64,000 nt of DNA, from the NCBI GenBank assembly GCA_025201345.1, contig JAIXMG010000016.1, positions 248,001 through 312,000 on the forward strand, read 5' to 3'. The position numbers were made by a program, and so were the translations under genes. Origin of the DNA: Thamnidium elegans (Eukaryota; Mucoromycota; Mucoromycetes; Mucorales; Mucoraceae). Positions within the stretch are counted from its first letter, which is position 1. Each line of letters starts with the position of its first letter. Below the pieces are notes generated by a model, which saw only the letters and a list, made by a program, of their open reading frames with translations, was not told the DNA's origin and made no database searches. Shown in pieces: positions 36,262 through 60,420 of this stretch.

Positions 36262-37068
36262 TTATGTCCTCCTAAAGGCTTCTGGGCGATTGTAGTTATC
36301 TTGAGCCATATAAAGAAAAACGGAACGAATATTCATACTAGCCATATGGTCTCTATTCCACCGTGTATCACAAGTAGAGCATTTGAGTACAGGATGTATT
36401 TTTAAACCGGAACTGTTTTTTTCGTTCGAGGTTGTTCTGGTTTGGCACCTAGGGCATATTTGTGAAGTCAGATATTCATCAACCATTACAACATAATTTG
36501 GTACTTTTCTGTTTCTTTCGCGAGCAAGTTTAATGAGAGAGTCTTTAACGACTTTGGTAGGAGCAGGTACGTTTCCTTTCAAGTTACCAAACATGGCAGC
36601 GCCAAAAGCAAGTACAACAGGTTTGTTTGATTCTTTTGGTCCATCTCCAGGGGAAAGCTGCTTCCACTTCTTGTTACTATCTTCAATCACCATATGTCTG
36701 GTAGGATCATACTTTCTACTGCCAGTTATTAGACGTTTGGATATTTCTGAGAGTGTTTGCTGTTTTTTAATATAGTTACGAAATTTAAGCTTGTTGAATT
36801 TTAAATCACGGTCATAATATAGAGTTATATTAACAAAATTATTAAATATATATATTGCAGCAGCATTAAACAGATCTAAAGAGCTAGCCTTTAAGGATGG
36901 TGTAGCGGAAATTATAGCTCTTTCCTCAGTATCACCTCTACCAATCTTTCCTCGAGTAATTGTAGCTTTCTTAAAACCGGCAAGTTGATAATATTTGGCA
37001 GTTGTAATTATTCTTATTCTATGCCTTTCCAGATGATTACCATCAGCAGCGACAAACACATCTCGCAA
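36262..37068 (-). pseudogene. Fanzor (eukaryotic TnpB-like) nuclease, 5'-truncated
   Basis: The open frame of 268 residues has the C-terminal TnpB architecture. Near the start LRDVFVAADG follows the place where the RuvC-I Asp-Pro-Gly should be. Then comes KKQQTLSEISKRLI. VVMVDEYLTSQICPRC holds a candidate RuvC-II glutamate (E198, about 36475-36477) next to a four-cysteine zinc ribbon (C205, C208, C230, C233). Finally WNRDHMASMNI holds the RuvC-III aspartate (D240, about 36349-36351). The frame opens at a perfect splice acceptor (ttttttag, then codons for A-G-L-R-D), with an in-frame TAG just before. No upstream exon supplying the first catalytic aspartate or the N-terminal lobe was found up to 38077. 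Such proteins are RNA-guided DNA endonucleases related to Cas12; this copy is probably incomplete. Confidence 0.8.
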
Positions 37069-38077
37069 ACCTGCCTAAAAAATAACCATAAACAGCTATT
37101 TTATCATTTCAGAAAAGAAAAAAAAGTTGATGATAACAAAGCCTTTTATAGTATGCTCTCGAATCTGTTGTAACAACTGTCTATACATGTATTTGAGATT
37201 ACTTGTATCATTGTGCTATTTCGATAAGTAAGCTGTAATAGGTAAAATCTTGTTTGCACACAATTGTTTTTAATTTATATAGTTGTTTATAATAAGAAAG
37301 AGACCTAATTAATACGTAGATAATATTATTGATGTATATAATTTTATGTAACTTGATATATGATAACATCACATTTGTATAAATGATGTATACTTTATTT
37401 CTACTAAATATCCTAAATAACAATGATTCTTATACTTTTAATATACTCATAAAAGAAACTCTATTTGTATTAGGGTTTATCTCAATTAAATTTTATTTGT
37501 ATTTCAGTAAAAGATTTATGTATCAACCTCTCTTCTATAGAAGAAAAATACCAACGCTCAATATGCATCACATCTTAAAAACACAACTTTTTATCCAACC
37601 GACAAAAACCCTCATATCACAGTCTTAAGATAAACGGAGTTAAAAGTCATAATGAAGAAGGAAATACATTGCTGTACATTTAACTTTTAAAATAATATGT
37701 CTCTTTTTATATGCTACTTATACAAAAAGAATTTCAATAATTGTATTTAAACTTTCCCAAATATTCACTTATTCTTTCTTAATAACCTGTGAAAATACAG
37801 TAAAAAAAGAAACATTTTTAAAATATACGTTAGCCATAATAGACATTACTCGTTTTAAAAATGCTTTTGGTCATAAATAGCCATAGGCCAAAAAAAAAAA
37901 CAATAAAGAAAATATTATACTGGTAATAAAGTATCACAGAGCCGTGCTTCTTGCTGTTTTCCCTTTCTTTATACTTTACTTTATTTTTTATAAACATTTT
38001 ATTCCAAATTATCACAGCAGATATACCTTTGAATTATTTATATAAAAGAGATATTTTTTCAAGCTAACTAGGATCTA
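37069..38077. other. AT-rich region 5' of the Fanzor fragment
   Basis: Stops are dense in all frames. This is where the missing Fanzor exons should lie if the gene were intact, but no TnpB-type N-terminal sequence can be read. One short minus-strand stretch (YRQLLQQIREHTIKGF, about 37130-37180) could be a remnant; that is speculative. Confidence 0.4.
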
Positions 38078-39470
38078 TCAGTTTGTTTGCACATGTCGAA
38101 TATTTAACTTTTCTTCAGTATCTTCCTGCTTAATTTTTACTTCTTTCACATTATGTAAAGTAGCCAAATGACGCAAATAATTACGTCTATCTGAGTAAGT
38201 TCTATTGCATGAAGCACAGTGATCATTTTTATCGAGAATGTCGGGAATAATATCGCGATTCGTCTGCAGTGCTTCCTTCCTTGGTCTAGGTAGTACGATG
38301 CCGTGAACATCACACAAATGGGCTCGATATGTTGTCAATGATTTATATGTTCTATCACAGACATTACAATACTTTTTTAAAAAGTCCATAACAGGTTCTG
38401 TTCTTCTAGCTATATTACGTTTCCTAAGTATAGAAGGTATAATAAAAATATGTATTCTATATAGATGCCGTTCATAAGACCTATAGGAAGAATATGTTCT
38501 ATTACATAAAGTGCAATGGTTATTTGGATCGTCAACACCTGGAAAGTATTCGAGTGGTTTGATGCTATGAATTTTATTCATATGAATTCGAAGTAAACGT
38601 TTGGACAGGAATACTTTTTGGCAATCAGCGCAAGACTTCGTATACATTAGGTCTTTCCCGCTAAAGCTCTCACAATCTAATCCTTGATAAAGTTCTGGCA
38701 TTTTGTCAAGATGGACGGAGGTCAAATGTTCTATAAAACTATGTCTCCCGTTAAACGTTTGATCACATGCAGCACAATAATTATTTTGATCGGCAGAGTT
38801 TGGTATAATATCAGAATGAGAGGTTGATGTTATATGATGTACATTGATCAAATGTGTATTGTAGCCGTTTCGTGACTTGAACATATAACTACACGAACTA
38901 CAGTAATTGTTTAGATCATGGGTGTCAGGTATTTTCGACAGGTTTCGTTTTGGTTGGATAGGTGGGATATGGATATTACATTGATTGGTCATATGCTTGC
39001 GATATAATTTAAAAGTTCTAAATCGTCTACTGCATATATTACAGCAGCGGGTTTTGAGGTCGATAATAGGTGTGTCTTTAGTTTTATGGGAGTGAAGTTC
39101 GTGATCAAGATAAAGCTCTCTAAACCGAAAATTGATGTTACATATACTACAGTGTCTGTTTTTGGTATCTGTCGATAAATCTATATGTGTATATCTAGTG
39201 AGTATCAGACTGTATAGAAGGTCCTTTCTCTGCCCCCCCACCCTCTCTCCCTCTCTCTATATATAAATTCTCTTTTCAGCGCTTACTACTGTCATACTCG
39301 CTTATTTCTGAAGAAGGTGATTCAATCTTCACGGAAGAATACAAAGCGCATTTCGAAGTTTCTTTACTTTCTTCTGCTTCTTGCTTAATATAAGCTCTAG
39401 TTCTTGGTTTGTATATTTTCAAATCGCGATTAGACACGTCAATTTTAACATCTTCGGTTTTTCGTTGCAT
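38078..39470 (-). CDS. Multi-C2H2 zinc-finger protein
   Basis: An upstream exon (from 39470; acidic and basic, containing YIKQEAEESKE) joins across an intron of about 105 bp (GTAAGC...ATATAG) to a long exon ending at 38078. The long exon holds eight finger-like units of pattern CX2CX12HX4H, for example CSSCSYMFKSRNGYNTHLINVH, written here only as C-C-12-H-4-H, plus NHCTLCNRTYSSYRSYERHL and DHCASCNRTYSDRRNYLRHL. The second unit has a cysteine near the last histidine position. Linkers are long and carry IIPD motifs, unlike the TGEKP linkers of classic DNA-binding arrays, so DNA binding is uncertain. The tail KIKQEDTEEKL resembles a SUMO-site motif. A decayed relative lies at 59434-60420. Confidence 0.75.
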
Positions 39471-45293: not shown

Positions 45294-48200
45294 ATGCAAA
45301 ATATTCAGTTCACTCACGTTATTGGAATAGGTAAACTTTATTTGATCTTTCAAAAAAAATATAGGTGTTGACATTTGTTTAGACTTGGGAGCAAAATTTT
45401 CTTCTGCAGGATATTGTATTAAAGAAGATGGATTTGAAAAAGTAACTGATATACGATGGTAAAAAATAAAATAAAATAATACATCGTTGAAAAATAAACC
45501 ATTTTTTAATTGACGATGGATTTGTTTTTGCTGCTTTTTTTTTTTAGGGATTCAGATAATTCATCGAATGATTTTCCTAAAGTACCTACAGCAATTGCAT
45601 ACCACAGGACAGATCCCCGTAAGCTAAAGTGGGGCTTATCAGCAGTTAATATGACGGAAGACGAAAAAGAAGAATACGAAGAAGTAATTGAACTCTTCAA
45701 ATTACGTTTAGACGAAGATTTTATCAATAACCCCGGAGACGTACCTGATTTGCCAGACGGTACCTCAGCACTTACGATTATTTCAGATTACCTAAAAGAA
45801 CTACACAAGTGTATCTGTGAAGAAATGAGACTGTCGATGGACGACGGTCAGGATTTTAACAGCAAAAAGGAATTATTTCAGTATTGTTTAACCGTACCTA
45901 GCAAATGGTCCACCAACGCTCGAAATAATATGATTCGAGCTTCTATACTAGCTGGTATTATCAGTAGAGAGGATCCACCAGAGCGATTAATTATTATTTC
46001 AGACTTGGAGGCTGCTATTTTGTACACTGAATTATCACCGGACGGAATTCACGCAGAGTCAGGTGAGAGTATACTGGTGTGTGATATTGGTGGATCTTCG
46101 GTAGATATAGCGGTTTTTACAAAGTTTGTGGAGGGCTCAAAACGGATATTAGTAGAGACTACCCCACGGTACTTTAAATATAACTGTGTTTCGGACGAAC
46201 TGGATGCACGTATGGAAGAATCATTGAACCGGAATGCTACACCGTATGGATTTGATCAAGATAGAAAAGAAGCCATGTCTCAAGAATTTTTAAAAAACTT
46301 TACTACAGAATTCAAGGTAAAAAAAAAACAACAACAATGCACATACATGATGATTATTTACATTTTTATATCAGTCAGTATTCGGAAGTGATTTAACATT
46401 TCTAGATAACCGATACGACGTTAGTACTGGGTACTTTACATCTGGCATAGAAGAATTTGTTATTCCACCATCCATGATTCACGAACAGGTATTTGAGCCA
46501 GTTATATCCGAGATTGTAGACGTCATGGATTATCAAATAGACGAATTAAATGAAAGAGGATCACATTTAGATTATATTGTTTTAACGGGTGGGTTTATTC
46601 CTAATTTTTATCTGGTTAAAAGCATAAAAGAAAGGTTTGGTGATAAAATAAAAGAGATTGTTTCTCCACCAAAAGGAGCTTCGCTTACATTATCTCGTGG
46701 GGCCACGTATTCTGTGTTACTGGACCCTTATGACGAAGTAACTCATTCTCATTATCTTCCAATCGATCTCCCGGAAAATAAGGTACACTTGTTTTTTTTA
46801 GAAAGAGAGAGAAAAAAGCTAAATATTTATGTAGGTGCTTGTTATGGATGCAGAAACTAGAGTCGTAAATAATCTTGTAGAGTATAATAAACGTCGATTT
46901 GTAACCATAGGAATAGGTAATGTAAATACGTTTTTTTTTTTTTGGGGAGTTTTAGTCTAAACATAGTGTTAGATCTCGGAACCCTGTTTTCTACTGCAAG
47001 CTATGCACTTACTGGGGAAGATAAACAAGCCGATGATGTTCACGATATTACAAAATGGTATAGTAACCAAGATTATAAAAATAATAATATTATACTTATT
47101 TGAAACTTTTAATTCAAATTTTTATTTTTTTTCTCCCCCCCCCCTCCTCCTCTTATATTTATTTATTTATATTATTTTTCAATAATATTAAGCATATTTA
47201 CATTTACCCTACTATATATAGGCCAAAAAACCGACTTCATCTATCGTCCAAGGTACCCTCAGCTATTCGATACCATCTCACCGATTCTACCCTGTACAAG
47301 TGTGGTTATGAAGCTCTGTTGATGTCCGACACCGAAAAAGAAGAGTACGGCGAGGTTATACAGCAATTTAAGCTGTACCTCGATGAAGACACGTATCAAG
47401 ATACCATGGAACCTTTACCTGAAGGGCTAACCATACTCAAAGTATTTTCTGATTACTTGACGTACATGTACAGCAATATATGTACACAAATTAAACATTC
47501 ATCCAATTATCGATCCGAAGGTATTATGCAACGTAAATTTCTGTATTGTTTAACAGTACCAGCTACATATTCGAATAAAGCAAAGGCTATTTTACGAGAG
47601 GCGTGTATTCGAGCAGATATGATCAGTAGATACGATCATTTTGATAGACTGATTATGGTCAGCGAGTCAGAAGCTGCTGTACTATATGCAGAGAAAAAGA
47701 CGAGCCGGTTTAATGCAGATGATACTATGTTGGTTTGTGAAGCGGGATTTTATACTACCAATCTAGCTTTGTTTAAAAAAAGTACGTTTGAAGGGGGAAC
47801 CAAGTCCTTTCAAGAGCTTTTGGATGGTCGCTCAATTCCGTTTGATTCAGAGCAGGTGATCAATGAGTACTTTATTAAGTATGTTACCGATGTATTGGAC
47901 GGATTTGAGTATGAGCTTGAAGAAGAGTGGGCATGGAAAAGTTTGTTAAAGCACCTTCATTACGCTGTCAAGGTAAAAATAATAGAAAAAAATAGCATAT
48001 TTTTTTTAAATTATTAATAAGGGAATTTTTTTTTTTTTTTTTTTTTTTTTTTAGCCTGTTATTCTAGATAATAACGATGATGAAAACGAAGTATTTGATT
48101 TCTTATTATCTCTTCCAGGCGCAGAAATCGAAACGGACGGATTTAGTTTAAACGAAGAAGGATTAGTGATTGAATCCAGGCTTTTACGACAACATGTGTT

Positions 48201-48429
48201 TGATCCAACCATTGAAAATATCTTGTCGATGATTGAATTTCAACTTAACCAAGTACATGATACAGAACTAAATTATATTATCTTGGTGGGAGAACTTGGA
48301 CAAACAGATTATTTACGTACAAAAGTAGAAGATAGGTTTAGTGAATATGTAGGAAGTATATGTGTTCCAGAACGAGGAGACCGTGCAGTTGCTCGAGGGG
48401 CTGTTTATCATGCATTAAATTCACACTAG
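45294..48429 (+). CDS. HSPA12-like Hsp70-type ATPase with two tandem modules
   Basis: Eight exons (45294-45330, 45365-45458, 45548-46316, 46375-46782, 46835-46916, 46973-47057, 47222-47972, 48055-48429) sum to 2601 nt, an open frame of 866 residues. It holds two actin-like ATPase modules. Module 1 (about 1-436) has DLGAKFSSAGY, TVPSKWSTNARNNMIRA, DIGGSSVDIAVF (D223) and YIVLTGGF. Module 2 (about 455-866) has GIDLGTLFSTASYAL, TVPATYSNKAKAILREA, then CEAGFYTTNLALF in place of the phosphate-2 motif (E665 where D223 stands) and YIILVGEL in place of the adenosine motif. Each module has introns at the same place and phase: after IGI (phase 1), within W (phase 2) and after the later K (phase 0). Two adjacent genes is the alternative, but only a 52-bp in-frame intron separates the modules. 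The function is unknown. Confidence 0.8.
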
Positions 48430-59433: not shown

Positions 59434-60420
59434 TTAACGTTTCCTTCGTATCTTCTTGTTTAATCTAGCTTTTTTTTTTATCAAATGTATTTTCGCCAAG
59501 TGATACCTATAATTAGATCTATTCGAGTAAGTTCGGTTACATGAGGCACAGTAATTGTTTTCATCATCCCTGTCCGGAATAATATCGCGGTTGATCTGAA
59601 TTGCTCTATTCGTCAGTCTAGGCAGTACGATGCCATGAATCATGCACAAATGTATTTTATATGCTGTTTTATTCCTGTATACTTTGTCACAGGCTGTGCG
59701 ACGTTTGCCTATTTCGTCAGTAACTGATGTTTCGTTACGATGAACATAAATTGACAATACTTCAGCTGAAGGGAATTTTATATTGAGACAGCGAGACATA
59801 TGGAATCGATAGGAAGACAATGCTTTATAGGTTTGATTACAAACATTACAACGCTCGTTTAAAAGATCTGAAACAGGCGCGATATTTCTATTAACCCGTC
59901 GTCTCTAGGGTAAAGTCAAATTATGAAAATGAATGATATGGTATCGAGAACTTCTTCTGCTACAATATGTTTTTATCACATAAATTAAAATGATTATTTG
60001 GATCACTAATGTCTGGATTATCAGCATTCGACACATGTTTGACTCGTTTAGTGCCATCGATTTTATCGATATGAATTCGATGTAAACGTTTCGACAGAAA
60101 TACTTTTTGACAATCAGCGCACTATCTCTTATACTTCAGGTCTCTCTTACCTGAATTCCTACAATCTATTCCCTTGATAAAATTATGGATTTTCGTCAAG
60201 ATGAGAGGAAATTAAATGACATAAATAGGCTTTTCTGTGACAAAATGTTTTGGCGCATGTAACGCAATAATTATTGCGATCAGCTATCTTTGGTATCAAA
60301 TAAGAACAATAGGGGTGGTATTATATGATGGGCATTAGCCAAGTGTCTATAGTAGTTGTTCTTCGACTTGGATTTATAATTACATAAGGTACAGTAATTG
60401 TTTGGATCTTTGACATCAAT
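59434..60420 (-). pseudogene. Decayed copy of the C2H2 zinc-finger gene
   Basis: The longest open stretch (59434-59820) matches the 3' part of the gene at 38078-39470: AYKIHLCMIHGIVLPR, INRDIIPDRDDENNYCASCN and RTYSNRSNYRYHLAKIH. Upstream on the same strand the pieces CADCQKVFLSKRLHRIHIDK (near 60060-60125) and DPNNYCTLCNYKSKSKNNYY (near 60350-60420) match fingers 5 and 3 of the intact gene but are broken by stops and shifts. At least five fingers are recognisable in order. It is a non-functional paralogue. Confidence 0.8.

Follow-up and report, generated by a model that had tools for sequence, protein, structure and literature searches.

A predicted Thamnidium elegans protein with two tandem HSPA12-like nucleotide-binding domains and no substrate-binding domain

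Can two Hsp70-like heads that follow one another in a single reading frame belong to one protein and, if so, what could such a protein do? This question is raised by a predicted gene at positions 45294-48429, forward strand, of a 64,000-nucleotide stretch of the genome of the mucoralean fungus Thamnidium elegans (contig JAIXMG010000016.1, 248,001 to 312,000; G000:C8:248001-312000 in our coordinates; hereinafter, the window). Here we argue that the gene encodes one protein of 860 residues consisting of tandem nucleotide-binding domains (NBDs) of the Hsp70/HSPA12 type and lacking a substrate-binding domain (SBD), a conclusion that is strongly supported by the gene prediction together with homologous predictions from related fungi. 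In addition, a search of the genome (34.1 Mb in 64 contigs) brought to light at least 14 further pairs of adjacent HSPA12-like modules.

One gene for two modules

The eight exons join without a frame break, as an earlier note on this DNA had proposed: every intron is bounded by GT and AG, and no stop codon interrupts translation between the ATG at 45294 and the TAG at 48427-48429. The length of 866 codons given in that note would require the acceptors 45364 and 46972; a subsequent 868-residue model (acceptors 45364 and 46966) was dropped for the present one of 860 residues plus stop, in which intron 5 ends at 46972. The protein database search for fusion relatives was run with the 868-residue version, and some early searches with its module 1; in two of the three protein-database searches, scoring was confined to the 7,995 or 8,000 candidates with the most words in common. 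For intron 1, the best acceptor is 45382, so that exon 2 begins at 45383 and the protein reads VIGIDLGAKFS, with the first motif of the family (VIGIDLGAKFSSAGY); the alternative acceptor, 45364, adds GVDICL. With 45382, intron 1 falls on column 19 of the family profile in phase 1, the same as the matching intron of module 2. The prediction for Helicostylum pulchrum takes the other acceptor (VIGIGADMCLDLG), and our choice, which we infer from these features, remains a prediction.

In this model, exon 1 (45294..45330) encodes the N-terminus of module 1 and ends at the phase-1 intron that splits the Asp codon of IGIDLG; exon 2 (45383..45458), the phosphate-1 region DLGAKFSSAGY; exon 3 (45548..46316), the NBD core; and exon 4 (46375..46782), the end of the NBD, including LTGGF (46582-46596), and the linker VTHSHYLPIDLPENK (46738..46782). 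The 52-bp intron 4 (46783..46834) marks the junction. Beyond it, exon 5 (46835..46916) carries the remaining linker and the first residues of module 2, ending at the matching phase-1 intron position, exon 6 (46973..47057) the phosphate-1 region DLGTLFSTASY, exon 7 (47222..47972) the NBD core, and exon 8 (48055..48429) the end of module 2 and the stop codon, with no SBD following.

So could the model have merged two neighboring genes? An in-frame ATG at 46844 could start module 2, and unspliced intron 4 would close module 1 with a stop at 46858-46860. However, two such genes would overlap by 17 nucleotides, and the same fusion is predicted elsewhere. The H. pulchrum protein P0001 is annotated as fused (851 residues, 94% identity across the whole length), and the 534-residue P0002 of Mucor mucedo starts within the final quarter of module 1 and continues through the linker into module 2, its ATHSPYLPAHLPNNK-VLIM aligning with VTHSHYLPIDLPENK-VLVM over the position of intron 4. 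Because the fusion recurs in the H. pulchrum annotation and the M. mucedo protein crosses the junction with a conserved linker, an artefact is unlikely, and we consider two separate genes very improbable. The single fused gene of the earlier note therefore stands. Given that retention of intron 4 yields module 1 with a short tail, alternative splicing could produce a one-headed form of the protein.

Domain content and family membership

The two modules share 31% identity over 431 alignment columns (E 2.5e-54) and score 286.6 and 339.1 bits against a profile of 21 single-module proteins, which indicates similarity to the HSPA12-like NBD over its full length. They cover columns 9-406 and 14-408 of the 557-column profile; the two modules that the earlier note took to be complete are complete as NBDs, whereas the C-terminal domain is absent from both. 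The closest single-module paralogue, the T. elegans protein P0057 (BDF21DRAFT_426055), possesses a beta SBD. P0057 matches locus L011 on contig C15 (98.7% over 77 of its last residues; 9 mismatches in the main exon), and another T. elegans protein, P0092, matches locus L020 exon by exon at 95-100%. P0057 and the H. pulchrum protein P0056, which resemble HSPA12A/HSPA12B, show 35-39% identity to each focal module and fall with both in one clade (support 100); they combine a single NBD that has an intact pocket with a beta SBD, whereas the focal protein has two NBDs with altered pockets and no SBD.

General-purpose searches respond poorly to this family. With Pfam PF00012 (HSP70; cut-off 20.6 bits), P0001 scores 14.1 bits, below the cut-off, the single-module P0057 also only 18.8, and P0002 gives no match; the raw exons give sub-threshold Pfam matches only, and module 1 alone, compared with the PDB by phmmer, weak matches only (DnaK, E 0.28). 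For this reason, the family alignment was used in place of a single-module query, and it retrieves DnaK from the PDB with E 5.9e-18. Structure prediction, one of the checks suggested in the earlier note, gives a clear answer for one half of the protein: module 2 matches the Hsp70 NBD fold over the whole NBD, the structural matches covering mainly residues 441-851, whereas module 1 lies in the low-confidence part of the model.

Nucleotide pockets

The pockets were compared with those of 35 single-module proteins, using DnaK numbering from the alignment of the profile to DnaK; the functional roles of such residues as E171, D194 and K70 are those of DnaK-type pockets. With respect to the motif set DFGTT, catalytic Glu, DAGGGTVD and VGGFG, each module lacks several elements and neither retains the whole set. 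In module 1, the site of E171, which is Glu in 35 of 35 single-module proteins, carries Asp instead (codon 46002..46004, in ISDLEAA); every one of the five module-1 sequences extending over this position shows the change (T. elegans, H. pulchrum, P0053, P0054 and P0055). The phosphate-1 TT is replaced by AK in T. elegans and H. pulchrum, the pieces P0053, P0054 and P0055 stopping short of this position. GGGT becomes GGSS, GGST or GGAT across module-1 sequences, so that the phosphate-2 motif in T. elegans (46080..46106) reads CDIGGSSVD in place of the family's CDAGGGTVD.

Module 2 has lost, as noted earlier, both the phosphate-binding DIGG, which is now CEAG (47736-47747, within CEAGFYTTN at 47736..47762), and the adenosine GGF, with VGEL (48286..48297) in place of the family's VGGF. 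The Glu that substitutes for Asp at D194 is found in three species (T. elegans, H. pulchrum and M. mucedo), and CEAG is conserved in all of them; the second and third phosphate-2 glycines are replaced by FY (AE in M. mucedo), and the second adenosine glycine by Glu (Ile in M. mucedo). Module 2 keeps E171 and K70, and that of M. mucedo also TT. The loop GxGxxCGS is gone from both modules (RYKYNCVS and GRSIPFDS).

The proposal that an ATPase is paired with an inactive pseudo-ATPase thus survives for the second partner, which is degenerate and has been kept so across three species, and is not supported for the first, which, with AK for TT, Asp for Glu and GGSS for GGGT, is no ordinary ATPase. An active module 1 that is regulated in cis by an inactive module 2 would agree with what module 1 retains (the first Asp, the Lys, a phosphate-2 motif with its Asp and two of its glycines, and the adenosine GG) and with the greater losses in module 2; nevertheless, the AK in place of Thr-Thr and the fixation of Asp at the otherwise invariant catalytic Glu speak against such activity, and we regard this scenario as unlikely. 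At the other extreme, neither module would bind nucleotide and the two NBD folds would form a rigid double docking platform. Changes in both pockets, the loss of the loop from both and the high conservation between genera are compatible with a pure scaffold, but the survival of several pocket residues in each module, and of TT in module 2 of M. mucedo, makes it a rather doubtful one. Finally, the disappearance of motifs from both modules could signal a gene on its way to becoming a pseudogene. This we consider extremely improbable: the frame is unbroken, and the identity between T. elegans and H. pulchrum, 95.0% in module 1 and 96.3% in module 2, exceeds the 79.4% and 80.4% of the two single-module pairs compared.

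A possible function in trans

What, then, could the two-headed protein do? The pseudo-Hsp70s Ssz1 and Hsp110 work on partner Hsp70s in trans. Ssz1, the pseudo-Hsp70 of the ribosome-associated complex, is said to bind but not to hydrolyse ATP; it has a J-protein partner and, besides its only NBD, a short SBD, in which respects the focal protein, with its tandem NBDs, differs. Hsp110 (Sse1) is an Hsp70 relative that acts on another Hsp70 via the NBDs of the two proteins; it is a separate trans partner endowed with an SBD, whereas the focal protein carries a fused second NBD. Ssz1 NBD structures (4gni, 5mb9 and 7x3k) and the Hsc70 chain of the Hsp110:Hsc70 complex (3c7n) are among the matches of module 2, and an Hsp110 NBD (6gfa) matches the paralogue P0057.

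By analogy with these systems, the reading that we tentatively prefer is that of an SBD-less NBD-NBD pseudo-chaperone regulator in the style of Ssz1 and Hsp110, derived from fused NBD-coding parts. Under this hypothesis, NBD1 would still hold nucleotide, hydrolysing it poorly or not at all; little turnover is to be expected in this head because the Lys, the Asp and GGF are kept but Thr-Thr and the Glu are gone. NBD2 would be a pseudo-NBD that does not bind nucleotide in the usual manner and packs on NBD1 or on the NBD of a partner. The absence of an SBD implies that there would be no Hsp70-style grip on clients, and the pair may instead act in trans on SBD-bearing single-module HSPA12-like proteins, such as the nearest paralogue P0057. 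Such tuning of SBD-bearing proteins by an SBD-less relative is plausible because HSPA12A is reported to bind a receptor tail, through its SBD in two-hybrid assays and nucleotide-dependently in pull-downs (PMC6345817). The same paper introduces nucleotide binding by HSPA12 as uncharacterised and then describes ADP/ATP-dependent binding between HSPA12A and SorLA.

Several points weigh against the proposed regulator. Its action in trans is drawn from analogy, and the transcript, the binding and the activity are all predicted from sequence. P0001 and P0002 are themselves gene predictions, of which P0001 is spliced from a different donor and has no counterpart of the 15-residue linker, and P0002 lacks approximately the first three quarters of module 1. 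The rate controls comprise two single-module pairs only. The model of module 1 is poor, with a predicted local distance difference test (pLDDT) score below 50 over residues 1-58, much of 254-332 and 400-440, and a predicted template modelling (pTM) score of 0.58; because of the low pLDDT and this pTM, the relative placing of the modules is not modelled and no contact between them can be claimed.

Origin of the two modules

Did the two modules arise by internal duplication of a single gene, as the earlier note suggested on the strength of three intron positions and phases repeated in both? One intron (phase 1) splits the Asp codon of the first motif, one (phase 2) a Trp codon, and one (phase 0) follows a Lys; they lie at profile columns 19/19, 43/44 and 293/289 of modules 1 and 2, respectively. 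The phases agree, and the third pair, which the profile places 4 columns apart, coincides exactly when the modules are aligned directly with each other; by the strict rule (within one column of the profile and in phase), two of the three pairs match. In a crude random control, 200,000 draws of three introns produced at least two matches in 24 cases and all three in none.

The repeated introns are, however, old introns of the family. Of 12 single-module loci scanned, 7 showed the motif by pattern, and 4 of these have a phase-1 acceptor in its Asp codon; the P0057 locus shares this position with the focal modules. Exon breaks are also seen near column 44 (in L011, L012, L013, L015, L020 and others) and near column 292 (in L013, L018 and L020 but not in L011 and L012). 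Since single-module paralogues have the same introns, these show that each module stems from the 5' portion of an entire family gene, and they do not date the duplication. In the tree of all modules, module 1 (five sequences), module 2 (three) and the single-module proteins P0056, P0057 and P0074 form one clade (support 100), within which module 2 groups with the single-module proteins with a support of only 57. Among constrained trees, the approximately unbiased (AU) test gives p=0.725 for module 2 with the single-module proteins, 0.463 for module 1 with them and 0.074 for the two modules as sisters, the least likely of the three arrangements, which is not rejected. Internal duplication is thus only weakly supported, and fusion of two sister paralogues explains the sequences at least as well. 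Judging from the tree, the introns and the domain ends, the most likely course of events is that two HSPA12-like genes, closely related to each other, were joined by their NBD-coding parts without the C-terminal beta domain.

Other two-module genes in the genome

The focal gene is not the only one of its kind. The additional pairs comprise six of a type that we denote A-B and eight denoted C-D. For the first module, A, there are six strong matches (E 5e-52 or better; the copy on C28 has nine stops), each followed 0.8-1.3 kb on by another HSPA12-like module on the same strand; for the second module, D, eight strong matches (E 4e-70 or better, excluding two weak D-like matches on C30) all lie 1.0-1.2 kb downstream of a C-type match. 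Junction DNA was read at eight places, namely A-B in L069, L070, L071 and L072, the A-B-like L019, and C-D in L071, L072 and L035, that is, at seven of the 14 pairs plus L019, the other pairs being recognized from order and strand. At each of the eight, a single exon carries the end of the first module and, in the same frame, the opening residues of the second; an intron and the next exon follow, for example ...KSKDDFDFIVGIG, intron, DFGTTFTGCSY and ...NTLICLG, intron, DIGYLSTSCSF. Two more C-type exons in L036 and L038 also end in NTLICLG.

Like the focal gene, these genes combine two NBD-like modules, one of them degenerate, in one frame, with the same exon break before the Asp-Phe/Ile-Gly motif of the second module. 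In the four B modules of L069-L072, all the motif residues compared are intact (that of L019, for which the first motif was not captured in the table, reads DFGTSFS in the DNA), and the five tabulated A-type modules, including that of L019, have lost the second adenosine glycine and most phosphate-2 glycines. Among three C modules, that of L071 is intact and those of L072 and L035 have substitutions; a D module is significantly related to the family by hhalign (probability 98.4%, E 9.6e-15, 288 columns). Unlike the focal modules, B reaches into the C-terminal domain (columns 532 and 541 at two loci, weakly 545 at a third and only 439 at the fourth), D extends to column 445, and in the tree the A, B and C modules fall outside the clade of the focal gene. 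Long branches lead to the A modules, and the single D row, with 114 of 400 columns filled, falls below the 150 set for the tree. On this evidence, the two-module fusions of the genome appear to represent at least two and probably three lineages, A and D not standing in one tree. Mixed clusters of A-B and C-D genes on the same strand are found at G000:C34:829000-858000 and C26:122000-130000.

An even broader scenario, which we rate as improbable without dismissing it, is that fusion of HSPA12-like NBD genes has happened again and again, in this fungus and perhaps throughout Mucorales, with two lineages at least and probably three joining a more intact NBD to a degenerate one, and that the focal pair, having lost the SBD, became a free-standing regulator of the nucleotide state of single-headed chaperones. 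If so, the degenerate-first, degenerate-second and doubly eroded pairs would make up a natural series for the control of an Hsp70 head by a pseudo-NBD in cis. Covalent chains of NBD and pseudo-NBD, repeated in one genome, would allow the pairing to be studied in cis, and would provide a handle on the HSPA12 branch. In one paper, HSPA12 is treated as the most diverged human Hsp70 group, with homologues only in vertebrates among the genomes searched (PMC2266713); another reports that a TCDB class named Hsp70 occurs chiefly in Glomeromycotina and anaerobic chytrids (PMC8778642). A search of the open-licence literature found no paper on two-NBD HSPA12 proteins.

One further candidate, at G000:C15:339565-342907 (L023, L073), had by eye the look of an intact module with a degenerate one behind it but was not counted as a two-module gene. 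Its 1114-codon frame contains an HSPA12-like module with intact DAGGGTVD and GGFG, followed by about 600 residues for which profile search, phmmer and hhalign detected no relative: the profile score of this second half is -2.9, phmmer against a D module failed, and the hhalign E of 0.19 lies among those of the controls (shuffled, 0.36; unrelated protein, 0.055). A second copy, 10.9 kb off, is 97.7% identical over 1.9 kb and has a shorter frame (530 residues). Many weak matches (about 22-30 bits) in HSPA12-like frames of about 245-260 residues are scattered over C15, C16, C42-C45 and other contigs, often small ones, and possibly constitute a separate, very divergent array of the same family. 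In one such region (L074, C43:73000-82900), which has no Rfam match, a weak HSPA12-like frame lies beside frames on the other strand that were recognized by eye as reverse-transcriptase-like and recombinase-like.

Other features of the window

On the reverse strand of the window, a 270-residue frame at 36262-37074 contains a Cas12f1-like TNB domain (PF07282, 41.8 bits) and an ending of the form CPRC...CSTC...WNRDHMASMN; we take it to resemble a Fanzor/TnpB-type nuclease of a eukaryotic transposon. On the same strand, zinc-finger-like repeats form two runs, at 38078-39256 and 59434-59904, that resemble each other in wording (NRDIIPD, CNRTYS); the former matches C2H2 zinc-finger families.
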